The notes under the pieces are model-generated. The model was given only the letters and a program-made list of their open reading frames with translations, was not told the DNA's origin and did no database searches. Positions 19,595-30,600 of a stretch of DNA of 64,000 nt are shown in pieces (position 1 is the stretch's first letter; the number at the start of each line of letters is the position of its first letter). A program made the position numbers and the translations under genes. Source of the stretch: Methanoculleus oceani (GTDB taxonomy: Archaea > Halobacteriota > Methanomicrobia > Methanomicrobiales > Methanoculleaceae); assembly GCF_023702065.1 (NCBI RefSeq), contig NZ_QFDM01000003.1, positions 434,001 through 498,000 on the forward strand, in the 5' to 3' direction.

Positions 19595-22390
19595 GTGCAT
19601 CTGATCATCGCAGAGAAGAACATATCGGCAAACCGGATCGCGCAGCTCCTCGCCGGCAACGAGAAGGTGAGGGCGACAAAGGATGGGAGCGTGTCCACCT
19701 ACTCTTTCGATACGAAGACGGTGGTGGGCCTCAAGGGGCACGTGGTGGAGGTGGACTTCGAGCCCGGCTACACGAACTGGCGAAGCGAGGTCCACACCCC
19801 GAGAAGCCTCATCGATGCGGGGACCATCAAGAAGCCGACCGAGAAGAAGATTGTCAATATCATACAGAAACTTTCAAAAAAGGCGGACCTCGTCACCATC
19901 GCCACAGATTACGATACCGAAGGGGAGTTGATCGGGAAGGAGGCCTACGAACTCGTCCGTGCGGTGAATCCCGGGGTTAAGATCAACCGGGCCCGGTTCT
20001 CCGCGATAACCCCCGCGGAGATCCGGTCCGCGTTTGCAAACCTGACCGATCTCGACTTCGCGCTCGCGGCTGCCGGCGAGACCCGCCAAGCGGTCGACCT
20101 GATGTGGGGGGCGGCGCTGACCCGGTTCATCAGCCTCGCTGCCCGGCGGGGCGGCACGAACATCCTCTCCGTTGGCCGGGTCCAGAGTCCGACGCTTGCG
20201 ATGATCGTCGACCGTGAACGCGAGATCGAGAACTTCGTTCCCCAGACCTACTGGATGCTCTCGCTTGCGACCGAGAAGGACGGAGTGCCGGTGGAGGCGC
20301 GGCATACCGCCGGGCGGTTCACCGACCACGAAGCGGCCCTCGCCGCGGAAGCGGGGACCAGAGAGCCGCTCGTGGTCACGGACGTGAAAGAGGGGCAGAA
20401 GAACGACCGGGCGCCGGCGCCGTTCGACACCACGACCTTCATCGTCGCGGCGAGCCGCCTGGGCCTCTCGGCGGCGAACGCGATGCGGATAGCCGAAGAC
20501 CTCTACATGAACGGGTACATCTCCTACCCGAGGACAGACAACACGGTCTACCCGAAGTCGCTGAACCTGAACGGGATCCTCGAGACGCTCAAAGGAGGGG
20601 CGTTCGATAAGGACGTCGCCTGGGTGCAGCAGCACAGACGAGAGGTCCCGACCAGGGGCAAGAAGGAGAGCACCGATCACCCGCCGATCCACCCCGCGGG
20701 GGCAGCGAGTCGCGAGGCCCTCGGACAGGACCGGTGGAAGGTCTACGAGCTCATTGTCCGGCGATTCCTTGCGACCCTCTCCCCCGACGCGACGTGGGCG
20801 ACCACCAAGTGCATCTTCGACGCGTCCGGCGAACCCTATACGGCCACGGGCGGCAGGCTCCTCTCCACCGGATGGCGCCGGGTCTACCCCTACTCGGAGG
20901 CGAAGGAGAATATCCTCCCGGTCTTCGCCAAGGGCGACCGCCTGCCGATCAAGAACGTGAACCTCGAAGAGAAGCAGACGCAGCCCCCGGCACGCTACTC
21001 CCAGAGCCGGCTCATCCAGGTGATGGAGGAGCTCGGCCTCGGCACGAAGAGCACCCGGCACGAGGTGATAGGGAAGCTCGTCTCCCGCCGCTACGTGGAG
21101 GGGAACCCGCTCCGCCCGACGCTCGTCGGGAGAGCCGTCACGGACGCGCTCGACAACCACGCGGAGACGATCACCGAGCCCGAGATGACCCGGACGCTTG
21201 AGGAGCACATGGAGCTCATCAAGCAGAGCCGACGCTCCCGCGACGACGTCGTCACCGAGTCCCGCGAGATGCTTCATAGGGTCTTTGACAAACTCGAAGC
21301 GCACGAGAAGGAGATCGGCGAGGAGATCATGGAGCAGACCGCCGAGGAGCACACCGTCGGCCCCTGCCCCGTCTGCGGCCACGATCTCCGGATCCGGCAC
21401 ATCGGCGTCTCCCAGTTCATCGGGTGTACCGGGTACCCGGAGTGCCGGTTCAACATCAGCCTGCCCGGCAGCACCTGGGGACGGGCGATCCGGGTCGAGG
21501 AGACCTGCGAGAAGCACAACCTCTCCCACGTCCGCCTGATCCGGAAGGGCTCTCGCCCGTGGGACATAGGCTGCCCGCTCTGCAGCCACATCGCCTCGAA
21601 CGTCGAGGCGCTCCGGATGATGCCCTCGATGACCGACGACCTCATACAGCGCCTCCACGCGCACCATATCTACACGGTCTCCGAGATTGCAGGCATGCAG
21701 CCCGAGGAGCTCGCGAAGGCCGTCGGCGTCGACGCCGGGAAGGCCGGGCAGCTTGCCGGGGAGGCGGAGGATGCGCTCGAGGTCCTCCGCCGCCGTTCGG
21801 AACTCAGGAAGTTCGTCCGGAAGATCGTTCCCCCGAGGAAAGGCCGGAGTCACGCGAAGATCATCAGGAGTCTCCTCGAGCAGGGGATCGGGGATATCCA
21901 TGCGCTCTCGCTGGCCGAGCCTGCGGCGCTCAAGAAAGCGGGCATCCCGGAGGCTGCCGGAACGGAACTCCTTGGGGCAGCCCGCGGGCTCTGCAACGAG
22001 CGCGCCCTCCGGGAGGCCGGGGTTCCCGCGGTCAGCCTGAAGAAGTACCAGGCCGGAGGCGTCGCAACCCCCGACGACTTCTGTTACCTCCCCATCCCCT
22101 ACCTCTCAAGCAAAACCGGCATTAATCCGGAAACCGTACATAAACATGTGGACATGGTCTGCAGGCATCTCGGGCGCCCCACCCCGGCGAAAGTCTCCAG
22201 GGCGATGCTTGAGCGCGGGCAAAAGGAACTCCTGGAGATCCCCGGCATCGGCGAGGTGACCGTGGAGAGGCTCTACCTTGCAGGTATCTACGACGCTGCC
22301 ACGCTTCGTGAAGCCGATCCGGAAGAGGTCTCCTCCATCACCGGCATCCCGAAGGCCAGGCTCCACGACTACATCGGCCATCTGAAGTGA
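19595..22390 (+). CDS. topA: Archaeal DNA topoisomerase I (type IA)
   Basis: Relaxes negative supercoils by cutting one strand. 931 residues: N-terminal TOPRIM domain (HLIIAEKNISANRIAQLL; acidic triad region TDYDTEGE), the gated core with the catalytic tyrosine at about 311 in YISYPRTDNT, and a C-terminal extension with a zinc ribbon (GPCPVCGHDLR ... GCTGYPECRF). A second cysteine pair follows (GCPLCSH), then several helix-hairpin-helix segments (LLEIPGIGEVTVERL; ISSITGIPKARL-type). Longer than minimal archaeal TopA because of these repeats. GTG start 6 bases after gatB; same operon. Confidence 0.94.
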   Translation: MHLIIAEKNISANRIAQLLAGNEKVRATKDGSVSTYSFDTKTVVGLKGHVVEVDFEPGYTNWRSEVHTPRSLIDAGTIKKPTEKKIVNIIQKLSKKADLVTIATDYDTEGELIGKEAYELVRAVNPGVKINRARFSAITPAEIRSAFANLTDLDFALAAAGETRQAVDLMWGAALTRFISLAARRGGTNILSVGRVQSPTLAMIVDREREIENFVPQTYWMLSLATEKDGVPVEARHTAGRFTDHEAALAAEAGTREPLVVTDVKEGQKNDRAPAPFDTTTFIVAASRLGLSAANAMRIAEDLYMNGYISYPRTDNTVYPKSLNLNGILETLKGGAFDKDVAWVQQHRREVPTRGKKESTDHPPIHPAGAASREALGQDRWKVYELIVRRFLATLSPDATWATTKCIFDASGEPYTATGGRLLSTGWRRVYPYSEAKENILPVFAKGDRLPIKNVNLEEKQTQPPARYSQSRLIQVMEELGLGTKSTRHEVIGKLVSRRYVEGNPLRPTLVGRAVTDALDNHAETITEPEMTRTLEEHMELIKQSRRSRDDVVTESREMLHRVFDKLEAHEKEIGEEIMEQTAEEHTVGPCPVCGHDLRIRHIGVSQFIGCTGYPECRFNISLPGSTWGRAIRVEETCEKHNLSHVRLIRKGSRPWDIGCPLCSHIASNVEALRMMPSMTDDLIQRLHAHHIYTVSEIAGMQPEELAKAVGVDAGKAGQLAGEAEDALEVLRRRSELRKFVRKIVPPRKGRSHAKIIRSLLEQGIGDIHALSLAEPAALKKAGIPEAAGTELLGAARGLCNERALREAGVPAVSLKKYQAGGVATPDDFCYLPIPYLSSKTGINPETVHKHVDMVCRHLGRPTPAKVSRAMLERGQKELLEIPGIGEVTVERLYLAGIYDAATLREADPEEVSSITGIPKARLHDYIGHLK

Positions 22391-27409: not shown

Positions 27410-28594
27410 TCACTCTACGGCGCAGTACGCGCCCCTGAAGAACCAGTTCCGGTAGACGATCGGAGTGACGATAGTGGTCAGCAGACTCATCAACACGATC
27501 GCGACGAAGACCCCCTGGCCGATGAGCCCCGAGTCCAGCCCGATCAGGGCGACGATCATCGCCACCTCCCCCCGCGGCGCCATCCCGAACCCGATGATGA
27601 GGGAGTCCTCCCGGCACATTCCCATCGCCCGCGCGGGCAGGCCGCACCCGATGACCTTGGTGGCGATGGCGACCAGGGTCAGCGCCACCAGGAAGATGAT
27701 GATGTCGGGGGTGAGCGCCTGGAAGTCCGCAAGGATACCGAGCGATACGAAGAAGATCGAGGCGAAGATGATCTGGAGGTACTCGGCGCCTTCCCTGACG
27801 TCCTTGCTGTTCCGGAGCCCGACTCCCTCGAATGCGACCCCGGCGATGAACGCACCGACGATCCCCGATAAACCCATCAGATCGGCGAGCATCGCGTAGA
27901 GGAACGCGATCATCATGGCGAAGATGAAGACGAACTCCGGGTACTTCCGCGCCAGCTTTGATCTATCCATCCGCTCGATGAACCGGCTTACGCCGAAGAG
28001 CCCGACGGCACCGCCGATGACGATGAACCCGAGCGCCTTGGCAAGGACCAGGCCGATCGAGACCGCCGAGACGTCTCCGGCGACCAGATCGGTCGTGATG
28101 GAGAGTGCCACCAGGGAGAGAATATCGTCGATGACCGCGGTGCCGATGATCGCCTTCGCCGCGCCGGTCTGGAGCATGCCGATCTCCTTGAGGACATTTG
28201 CAGTGATGGCGATACTCGTCGCCGTCAGCGCCGTGCCGACGAAGACTGCGCTGGCGAAGTCGAACCCGAAGAGAACGGCGGTGGCGTAGCCGCCTATCCA
28301 TGGTATGATAACGCCGAGTATCCCGATGACGCCGTAACTTGCTTTCAGGATATCCCTGACGTTAAATTCGAAACCGATAACGAAGAGAAGGATGATTGCC
28401 CCGAGATGCGCCAGGCTCCGGACGAAGTCCGTGTAGGTGATCAGGCCGAGCATGCTCGGGCCTACGAGGAGCCCCACGAGAATGGCCCCGATCGTCGCCG
28501 ACTGGTTGATCCTGGATGCCAGGAGGTAGCCGGCGAGCGCGAGGAAGAGGAGAAGGCTCATCTGGAACTCGATAGATAGGGCGGCACTTTCCAT
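27410..28594 (-). CDS. Cation:proton antiporter (CPA2/KefB-like)
   Basis: About 394 residues with roughly 12 hydrophobic segments and the CPA2 pattern: ESAALSIEFQMSLLL start, SATIGAILVGLLVGPSMLG, GFEFNVRDILKASYGVIG, and the ion-binding region TALTATSIAITANVLKEIG ... GTAVIDDILSLVALSI with paired aspartates (IDD). Exchanges Na+ or K+ for H+ across the membrane. No regulatory TrkA domain is attached, unlike KefB/C, so it is closer to the short Na+/H+ type. ATG at 28594 is preferred from a TATA-like ATACATTT upstream; other in-frame starts exist at 28639 and 28561. Confidence 0.85.
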   Translation of the reverse strand: MESAALSIEFQMSLLLFLALAGYLLASRINQSATIGAILVGLLVGPSMLGLITYTDFVRSLAHLGAIILLFVIGFEFNVRDILKASYGVIGILGVIIPWIGGYATAVLFGFDFASAVFVGTALTATSIAITANVLKEIGMLQTGAAKAIIGTAVIDDILSLVALSITTDLVAGDVSAVSIGLVLAKALGFIVIGGAVGLFGVSRFIERMDRSKLARKYPEFVFIFAMMIAFLYAMLADLMGLSGIVGAFIAGVAFEGVGLRNSKDVREGAEYLQIIFASIFFVSLGILADFQALTPDIIIFLVALTLVAIATKVIGCGLPARAMGMCREDSLIIGFGMAPRGEVAMIVALIGLDSGLIGQGVFVAIVLMSLLTTIVTPIVYRNWFFRGAYCAVE

Positions 28595-28968
28595 TGTTGC
28601 CCATGATCTGGGGAGGGAGGCCTTAAGAAATGTATGCAACGTACGGGGGTTGCAGGGGGACTGCAGGAGAACAACGGCCGCATCTCGCCGGGTGCAGGGC
28701 AGGCGTAATCGGGTCGTTCACCCTCACCGCTTCAGGCAGGAAGAGAACGCTGCACGACGGGTTCTCCCCGGCCCACCCCCATAGGCAGGCATGCCGGCCA
28801 TGTCCGATGGTAGCCGGATGGAAACACTAACCGTTGGATGAGCGGGGCTCTCTCCGCCTCTCCAGCCGAAAAATGGAAATACACTCCCAAACGCAAAAAT
28901 AACCCGCTTTCAAGAGTCGTTATGGGTACACTACCTTCAAGACCTTCCACTGCAAATCTCCACTATAG
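28595..28968. other. Intergenic region between antiporter and ATPase-acetyltransferase genes
   Basis: 374 bases between divergent genes. An A/T-rich patch at about 28890-28905 (AACGCAAAAATAACC) could hold the promoter for the right-hand gene; a TATA-like ATACATTT near 28630 (minus) suits the antiporter. No gene is recognisable. Confidence 0.4.
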
Positions 28969-30369
28969 ATGGAACAGCAGGTACAGGTGACCATCCAGAG
29001 CGATCCGGCTTTCCTCGGTATTGTTCGGTCGGCGGTCTCCCGGATGGCATCCCTTGGCGGTCTTCCCGCCGGCACGATCAGGGAGCTCGCCCTTGGCGCC
29101 GAGGAGGCTGTGCTCTGGATCATCGACCACGCCTTCCCGCCGAACACGAAGGGCGAGATCACGCTCACCTGCTCGATCACCACCGACCGATTTGAGGTAC
29201 GGATCGTCGAACACGGGATCCCCTTCGACCCGGAGATGGCTCCCCCGACACTACCCCGGTGCCGGGCGGTCATGGATCGGATCGCCTTTACAAACAGGGG
29301 GTGGGCCGGGAAGGAGACCCTGCTGGCGAAGGACTGCAGAGTGCCCCCGCACTTCTCCCGCCCTCCGGTGCCGCCCGCATCCACCGGATCCGTGCTGATC
29401 CGCCCGACCCTGCCCGATGAGGCGGTGGAGATCTCACGATGCGCTTACTTCAGCTACGGCTACTCCTACGGTTACGAGAAGGTTTACCATCCGGACGTGC
29501 TCAAAGCCCTGATACGATCGGGTGACCTTATCTCGTTCGTCGCGGTCGATGGCGATACCGTGGTCGGCCATGCCGGGCTCCTCTTCTACGACGACCCGGG
29601 TGTAGCCGAGATCGCGCTCGGGTTCGTGAACCCGCCCTACCGGAGCCGACGGGTCTTCTCAGACCTGATGGCAACCGTCGTTGCGGAGGCCGAACGCCGG
29701 CACCTGACAGCACTCTCCGGGCAGGCGGTCTGCACCCATCTTTACTCGCAGCGGTCGGCCCGGGCCTTCGGGATGGGCGAGTGCGCACTCCTCCTCTCCC
29801 GTTACACCCCGCTCCGGTTCACCGGGATAGCCGATGAGAACCGGGTCAGGGAGAGTATCCTTGCGGTCTTCCGCTACCTCTCACCGCCGGAGCATCCGGT
29901 TCTCTACCCGCCGGAGCACCATGCCGGCATAATGAGAGAGATCTACGATCACCTCGGCGTGCACCCGCCCTTCGGTATCGGCGATGCGTCAGCCGGCCTT
30001 CCGGAGAAGAGCGAATGCTCTATCATCGTTGAAGAGATTTACCAGACGGCTCAGATCCGTATCCGGTCCATCGGCACCGATCTCATCCCCCGGCTCAGGC
30101 GCGAACTCGACCGCCTCCGTGCCGGACGTATCGAGGCCGTCTACATCCACCTCCCGCTCACCGCTCCGGCAACCGCTGCCGTAGTGGACGCAATCGAGAA
30201 CCTCGGCTTCTTCTTTGCCGGACTGCACCTCACCTCCACCGGCGAGGATCTCCTCACCCTCCAGTATCTGAATAACCAGATCCTGGACTACGACACGGTC
30301 ATGGTGGCATCGCCCAACGCCGGCCGGCTGAAGGAGTATATCAGAGAGCGGGACCCCTGGCAGGAGTGA
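28969..30369 (+). CDS. RsbW-like ATPase domain fused to a GNAT acetyltransferase
   Basis: 466 residues. Residues 1-125 resemble an HATPase_c/RsbW-type serine kinase domain: N-box region IRELALGAEEAVLWIIDHAF, a G1-like VRIVEHGIPFDP and GWAGKETLLAKD, but the usual DxG glycine motif is altered (EHG), so ATP binding may be weak. Residues 140-285 are GNAT-like (VLIRPTLPDEAVEISRCAY, DLISFVAVDGDTVVGHAGLL, FVNPPYRSRRVFSDLM for acetyl-CoA). Residues 330-460 are a second alpha-beta domain (IVEEIYQTAQIRIRSIG ... VVDAIENLGFFFAGLH), probably another acetyltransferase-like fold. Archaea lack sigma factors, so RsbW-type partner switching is not expected in the usual form. Confidence 0.75.
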   Translation: MEQQVQVTIQSDPAFLGIVRSAVSRMASLGGLPAGTIRELALGAEEAVLWIIDHAFPPNTKGEITLTCSITTDRFEVRIVEHGIPFDPEMAPPTLPRCRAVMDRIAFTNRGWAGKETLLAKDCRVPPHFSRPPVPPASTGSVLIRPTLPDEAVEISRCAYFSYGYSYGYEKVYHPDVLKALIRSGDLISFVAVDGDTVVGHAGLLFYDDPGVAEIALGFVNPPYRSRRVFSDLMATVVAEAERRHLTALSGQAVCTHLYSQRSARAFGMGECALLLSRYTPLRFTGIADENRVRESILAVFRYLSPPEHPVLYPPEHHAGIMREIYDHLGVHPPFGIGDASAGLPEKSECSIIVEEIYQTAQIRIRSIGTDLIPRLRRELDRLRAGRIEAVYIHLPLTAPATAAVVDAIENLGFFFAGLHLTSTGEDLLTLQYLNNQILDYDTVMVASPNAGRLKEYIRERDPWQE

Positions 30370-30424
30370 AGGATGCCTCCCCGGGTCTCCAGCATCTCAT
30401 GGTGCGCCTGAAAAAGAGTCCGGA

Positions 30425-30592
30425 TTACATTTGCAGGGAGTTCGAACATAACGTTGTGTACTCCCGGCACGTCCCCTGCCACCGGCAATAGCGGCAGCAG
30501 AGGACGGTCTCGGTACGAAGGCTCCCCTTCCCGAAGGCGGCGATTCGCTCGTAACCGGTCAGTTCCGCCCCGCAGCACGGACATGCGGCCAT
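30425..30592 (-). CDS. Small zinc-ribbon protein (55 residues)
   Basis: Open frame of 55 codons starting at ATG 30592, 8 bases after the enolase stop on the same strand. It reads with two cysteine pairs near the start (ACPCCGAEL) and a second cluster (VLCCRYCRWQGTC ... TLC), the arrangement of a zinc ribbon, with aromatic and basic residues between. Very short, so real status rests on the cysteine pattern, the position behind enolase and good codon use. No family recognised. Confidence 0.5.
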   Translation of the reverse strand: MAACPCCGAELTGYERIAAFGKGSLRTETVLCCRYCRWQGTCREYTTLCSNSLQM

Positions 30593-30600
30593 ACGTCGCC

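Follow-up and report, generated by a model that had tools for sequence, protein, structure and literature searches.

The window, as the whole analysed stretch of 64,000 nucleotides is called here, belongs to a 2.46-Mb, three-contig genome of Methanoculleus oceani, and it carries at positions 28969-30369, which correspond exactly to an open reading frame on the forward strand, a gene for a protein of 466 amino acids whose ATG lies right behind an in-frame TAG. Upstream of this gene are found a CPA2-type antiporter and a rubrerythrin, and downstream an enolase. The encoded protein joins an RsbW-like domain, a GNAT domain and a C-terminal alpha-beta domain in a single chain (Table 1).

Table 1. 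Features of the fusion gene, with positions counted along the window and residues along the encoded protein.
Feature	Residues	Positions	Strand	Basis
Whole gene: RsbW-like domain, GNAT domain, C-terminal alpha-beta domain		28969..30369	+	ORF, Pfam, AlphaFold2 model
RsbW/SpoIIAB-like HATPase_c_2 domain	3-124	28975..29340	+	Pfam; Z 17.0 to 6m37_C
N-box EEAVLWIIDH; the Asn conserved in RsbW proteins is Trp50	45-54	29101..29130	+	Alignment
G1 box EHGIPFDP; the conserved Asp is Glu81	81-88	29209..29232	+	Alignment
Site where the ATP lid and G2, the second glycine box (GLGxxLI in RsbW relatives), are deleted	88-100	29230..29268	+	Alignment
GNAT domain 1, slowest-evolving part	140-309	29386..29895	+	Pfam; Z 14.5 to 2ge3_A
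Acyl-CoA loop PPYRSRRVF; Arg225 kept, glycines of R-x-x-G-x-G replaced	222-230	29632..29658	+	Alignment
Family signature HLYSQ	257-261	29737..29751	+	H257 and Q261 each in 71 of 73 rows
C-terminal alpha-beta domain; tentative half GNAT-like fold in 341-437	310-466	29896..30366	+	Separate fold and structure searches

This domain content, which a preliminary description had read from the sequence, was confirmed. In Pfam, two profiles exceeded their curated cut-offs: HATPase_c_2, covering residues 10-94, with 44.8 bits (cut-off 27.4; E 1.5e-11), and Acetyltransf_1, covering residues 175-250, with 33.3 bits (cut-off 20.7; E 6.3e-8). The RsbW structure 6m36 was found in the PDB by sequence alone (E 4.4e-8). 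With the NCBIfam RsbW model the protein scored 40.8 bits, far below the equivalog cut-off of 145. Structure prediction agreed with these assignments. In the AlphaFold2 model (mean pLDDT 86, pTM 0.66), residues 3-124 were superimposed on Bacillus subtilis RsbW 6m37_C over 115 residues at 2.1 A, and on SpoIIAB with a Z of 16.7, while residues ~140-309 matched GNAT proteins, the stretch 140-305 being superimposed on the best of them, 2ge3_A, over 156 residues at 2.1 A. Since the 14-row alignment behind the model included relatives with an intact ATP site, the kept RsbW fold is to be taken as a prediction.

For the third domain, a separate model from residue 300 onwards (the last 167 residues) was built and searched, because the fold lists of the full model were filled by the RsbW-like and first GNAT domains. 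The separate model had a pLDDT of 91.5, and its residues 341-437 weakly resembled GNAT-like half domains (NUDT7, Z 9.7; NUDT6, 9.2; SpeG, 8.5; antizyme, 8.4), with SpeG also being the best Foldseek match (E 4.8e-4). The N-terminal domain of NUDT6 and NUDT7 and the antizyme, which we take to be GNAT-like non-enzymes, are otherwise different proteins. The C-terminal domain may thus tentatively be modelled as half a GNAT-like fold, the assignment being tentative because a best Z of 9.7 barely exceeds what unmatched models reach. Two GNAT-type folds per chain are also known from tandem GNAT enzymes such as Eis and mycothiol synthase, with an idle second domain. This comparison is one of fold and not of sequence (Eis1 6yca_D appeared in the fold list of the full model with a Z of 13.6 over 130 residues), and these enzymes, unlike the window protein, have no RsbW domain.

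Many bacteria possess fusions of the same family, of which the window protein is a variant and whose order of RsbW, GNAT and GNAT domains it follows over its whole chain. From 84,980 species genomes, scanned with an alignment of archaeal proteins, 22 loci were obtained, including Ignavibacteria, Desulfococcaceae, Dependentiae, Azorhizobium, Selenomonadales, Desulfomonile, Desulfovibrionaceae, Aequorivita and Bosea, and full-length relatives were found in at least five bacterial phyla, so that the statement of the preliminary description that such fusions occur in bacteria and some methanogens holds. The fusions from named bacterial records (such as Ignavibacteria L048, Azorhizobium L051, Desulfovibrionaceae L055, Aequorivita L059) shared with the window protein the domain order and the signature of R225, H257 and Q261, at 27-33% identity in the best segment. 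An archaeal invention of the fusion was rejected in view of its spread across bacterial phyla, among which the archaeal branch groups in a quick, unrooted tree of the GNAT part. In this tree the eight Methanoculleus/Methanofollis rows formed a fully supported group, nested in a 14-row group (SH-aLRT 96) whose other members came from Ignavibacteria, Dependentiae, Selenomonadales and, in two cases, the phylum to which the Desulfomonile locus belongs. That phylum had a match at E<=1e-30 in 47 of 297 sampled genomes, mostly GNAT tandems devoid of the RsbW part and often several per genome; a whole-length match was present in 23 genomes, and in one more it was cut by a contig end. In the archaeal class of the window, E<=1e-20 was reached in 41 of 232 genomes, often by stand-alone RsbW proteins, and the fusion itself was found in 12 of the 232, two of the copies being cut by contig ends; in one further genome (G025) it was broken, a decaying copy interrupted by stop codons across several frames (L188, on G025:C65). 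No family name was found for these fusions, and no treatment of them appeared among the matches listed in the open-licence literature, subscription journals lying outside that body of text. In PMC8256260, which reviews STAS-only proteins, neither the word archaea nor the word acetyltransferase occurs in the available text.

Within the genus, the fusion was present in four of 35 genomes and had no match in the other 31, some of these genomes being incomplete. The antiporter was found at E<=1e-80 in 21 of the 35. It stood directly beside the enolase, the fusion being absent, in ten of these 21, and beside the fusion in two (the genome of the window and G164); in G123 a second antiporter-like gene came next and then the fusion, and in the remaining eight the neighbour was another gene or lay beyond the flank. 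In G147, which is outside the 21, the fusion was placed between an antiporter piece and the enolase. The junction between antiporter and enolase (window 27410-30600, with the congeneric loci L193, L194 and L196) is therefore a variable slot, occupied by the fusion, by a second antiporter-like gene or by nothing, and the window fusion looks like an accessory gene in it, its gain being a simpler reading than repeated loss. Foreign base composition was considered and rejected: GC was ordinary (0.637), and GC3 (0.796), the lowest among the nine window genes compared (0.802-0.893 in the others), was close to that of its neighbours and hence gave no clear foreign signal. In three Methanofollis-type genomes, a conserved gene of 493-495 codons was observed behind the fusion (L066, L067, L068), the copy in L066 being a MatE transporter, and in L067 (6439-8829) the fusion frame was open for ~320 residues ahead of the RsbW-like domain.

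The RsbW-like domain of the window protein resembles the RsbW/SpoIIAB anti-sigma serine kinases (6m37; Bacillus SpoIIAB 1th8) in predicted fold and in its HATPase_c_2 (GHKL) match; unlike them, it has neither the N-box Asn, which in RsbW proteins is part of the ATP-metal site, nor the G1 Asp, the ATP lid and G2, and it is fused to GNAT. The altered glycine motif mentioned in the preliminary description is real, and the alteration goes further than was claimed. In an alignment of the relatives with stand-alone RsbW proteins from the same archaeal class, the G1 consensus D-x-G-x-[PG] was replaced by Glu81-H-G-I-P, and the segment holding the ATP lid and the G2 consensus GxGxxL[IM] was deleted. 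The window protein shared the Trp in the N-box, the Glu in G1 and the deletion of lid and G2 with three Methanoculleus-type relatives, and four Methanofollis-type relatives presented a His in the N-box, the same Glu and an identical deletion. Judged by these residues, the ATP site is gone in the Methanoculleus/Methanofollis branch, and its RsbW-like domain would neither bind ATP nor phosphorylate STAS proteins by the known mechanism. In contrast to this branch, in which all three are lost, N, D and G-x-G were all kept, as counted by eye, in 16 of 48 fused rows. A looser pattern gave 18 of 48 for N, D and G2 and 25 of 48 for N and G2, and it also passed a chance GLG in L066, which was left out of the kept-site count because its N-box is lost, a GLS in L172 and a shifted match in L160. 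On the quick tree of the GNAT part, the states of the site changed at least nine and at least ten times, figures that depend on the looser pattern and not on the count by eye and that do not distinguish gain from loss. Differences at the ATP site thus recur in the fusion family, and the window branch unites substitutions with a deletion.

The three parts of the fusion differed in the selection acting upon them. In six pairs inside the Methanoculleus/Methanofollis branch, the ratio of dN in the RsbW-like domain to dN in GNAT domain 1 was 2.6-6.3, against 0.75-1.69 in eight pairs keeping N, D and G2. Other pairs gave ratios of 1.50 (L049/L156, site lost), 1.93 (L052/L054, N-box lost), 3.81 (L162/L169, N and D kept and G2 altered), 2.16, 1.34 and 0.95 (three pairs with Asp changed to Glu) and 0.85 (L062/L065). 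Since the pairs share branches and dS is saturated in some of them, this contrast is a trend to which no p-value is attached. In the same six pairs of the window branch, dN/dS was 0.23-0.43 for the RsbW-like domain against 0.07-0.20 for GNAT domain 1, and a nine-pair version gave 0.29-0.57, 0.07-0.20 and 0.22-0.41 for the RsbW-like, first GNAT and C-terminal domains, respectively. GNAT domain 1 was accordingly under the strongest purifying selection of the three, and the pattern in the window branch fits an RsbW-like domain whose catalytic role has been lost and which still has to fold.

Genes of the partner-switching type were found near several relatives. A STAS gene lay within 2 kb of the unfused GNAT tandem in nine of 21 loci, against 0.11 expected, and within 2 kb of fused members in three of 49, against 0.25 expected, the expected values being calculated for 1.35 STAS genes per Mb, the density in 50 genomes. 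Of the 21 unfused loci, seven were archaeal, and the other 14 were drawn from the 58 unfused matches in the Desulfomonile phylum; since six of the nine STAS-adjacent loci belong to one archaeal clade and three to one bacterial clade, they amount to about two events. In 43 of the 49 fused loci, no STAS gene was seen in the fetched flanks, some of which were short. The gene orders STAS-RsbW-SpoIIE-fusion-LuxC-LuxE (L059), SpoIIE-STAS-RsbW-LuxE-LuxC-PaaK-fusion (L069, from an archaeon), LuxE-LuxC-PaaK-fusion-STAS-RsbW-SpoIIE (L158, in which the LuxE, LuxC and PaaK labels come from home-made profiles) and STAS-RsbW-fusion (L154) were observed. The tandems lacking RsbW that have STAS adjacent or near (archaeal L072-L076 and L187; L181-L183 from the Desulfomonile phylum; a Thiodictyon plasmid) presented homologous GNAT 1 and C-terminal domains, the kinase being a separate gene or none being seen nearby. 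On the plasmid, a 348-aa hypothetical protein matched the tandem weakly (E 2e-6), and genes for an ATP-binding protein, SpoIIE and STAS lay within ~4 kb of it on the opposite strand. The presence of STAS, RsbW and SpoIIE beside both fused and unfused tandems makes a link with partner switching likely in some relatives, and in part of the wider family a switch of this kind probably feeds into the acyltransferase, as the neighbourhoods and the fusion itself suggest.

Other genes recurred in these neighbourhoods. LuxE and LuxC, with an AMP-ligase-like part, clustered with the fusion in six of the 49 fused loci (L059, L069, L158, L051, L161, L163), from Bacteroidota, Alphaproteobacteria, the Desulfomonile-locus phylum and one archaeon, and five of the six had a separate PaaK-like gene. 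Together with the fusion they possibly constitute a pathway of fatty-acyl activation and reduction with an acyltransferase. A link to these acyl-activation genes as the general function was rejected, since LuxC had no match at E<=1e-5 in the genome of the window and therefore cannot explain the window gene. In five archaeal loci (L072, L073, L074, L075, L187), STAS was followed by the GNAT tandem and an ATP-grasp ligase, with MFS-like genes next in most of them, an arrangement that looks like a small regulated biosynthetic operon; upstream of the cluster in L072-L075 was a divergent gene of 545-547 codons, with a sub-threshold TPR match in L072. A defence system was also considered and rejected, PADLOC having given no match at E<=0.001 for five proteins, namely the window protein and four from the clusters of relatives.

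Around the window gene itself, home-made profiles detected no STAS, RsbW or SpoIIE gene between positions 20001 and 40000, so the STAS partners that the preliminary description had proposed to look for exist beside GNAT tandems in some relatives and not beside this gene. The same description held that archaea lack sigma factors and that the usual partner of an RsbW-type kinase does not exist. The former agrees with the failure of Sigma70_r2 to match at E<=0.01 in this genome, estimated to be 99% complete, when 10 of 14 control genomes did match; the latter is half true, because a STAS-SpoIIE-RsbW operon, its SpoIIE bearing a membrane part of five transmembrane segments, is encoded on another contig (G000:C1:356425-358656; L071:12426-14657). 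At E<=1e-5 the genome yielded three STAS proteins. The operon, for which no Sigma70_r2 protein was found as a target, gives substance to an explanation in which the ATP-dead RsbW-like domain still binds its STAS protein, while the stand-alone RsbW and SpoIIE set the phosphorylation state and thereby decide a docking that inhibits or activates the acyltransferase. Several bacteria and archaea carry STAS, RsbW and SpoIIE genes beside their GNAT tandems, and the domain retains some constraint, both of which are in line with this explanation. However, the operon is unlinked to the fusion gene, the lost ATP lid lies near the STAS-binding face in known RsbW-type complexes, the constraint is weaker than in relatives with a kept site, and the absence of a match in most genomes of the genus means that the window gene is not a general output of such operons. 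Altogether, this explanation is considered unlikely.

The possibility that both halves are dead enzymes, with the GNAT and GHKL folds serving as scaffolds of a structural or binding protein, draws on the acyl-CoA loop in addition to the lost ATP motifs. The loop motif of GNAT enzymes is [QR]-x-x-G-x-[GA], and the window protein reads R225-S-R-R-V-F230 at this place, with both glycines replaced; inspection by eye of the corresponding stretch in the C-terminal domain showed no acyl-CoA loop. Catalysis is therefore not assured, and the unusual loop leaves room for a non-enzymatic role. At position 228 the window protein has an Arg where 32 of 48 fused rows have Gly. The last glycine gives way to F, M or L in 42 of the 48, so that its loss is not peculiar to this branch. 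Against dead enzymes also stand the strong purifying selection on GNAT domain 1 and the near-invariance, across many phyla, of the residues R225 (73 of 73 fused and unfused rows), H257 and Q261, the last two within an H-x-x-[ST]-Q signature that the window protein retains. The explanation is accordingly regarded as quite improbable. Least of all can be said for the reading of the preliminary description, a kinase domain sensing ATP or another ligand and directly controlling protein acetylation, for which the predicted RsbW fold and the existence of bacterial protein lysine acetyltransferases with fused sensor domains speak, but which is not supported for the window protein, all three of its ATP motifs being lost, and is thus very improbable.

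The reading that we favour, with moderate confidence, takes the product of the window gene for an accessory N-acyltransferase that depends on acyl-CoA and carries its RsbW-like domain as an ATP-dead remnant or a docking module. GNAT domain 1 would be the working part, as its fold, conservation and constraint suggest, and the C-terminal domain a non-catalytic partner that may shape the substrate site or a dimer. The N-terminal domain would descend from an RsbW-type kinase of STAS proteins, which in some relatives probably ties the acyltransferase to a STAS/SpoIIE partner switch, the neighbourhood being observed and the mechanism deduced from it. In the window branch, selection on this domain would be weaker than on the enzyme, and what persists would be either a folded remnant or a module that serves docking or dimerisation independently of ATP.

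The best-known role of partner switching is the control of sigma factors, and in archaea that have a STAS-SpoIIE-RsbW operon while lacking a sigma-70 protein, the question arises what such a switch acts on. An acyltransferase with a fused kinase domain, placed beside STAS and SpoIIE in several lineages, is a concrete candidate for such an output. It may tentatively be proposed, with low confidence, that the fusion family represents sigma-free partner switching, in which an RsbW kinase is fused to a GNAT output and STAS and SpoIIE control acylation instead of transcription, with the kinase converted, in one archaeal branch, into a pseudokinase dock that needs no ATP. The window protein would illustrate the opposite fate, in which a fusion partner sheds its switch function and the enzyme part is kept.
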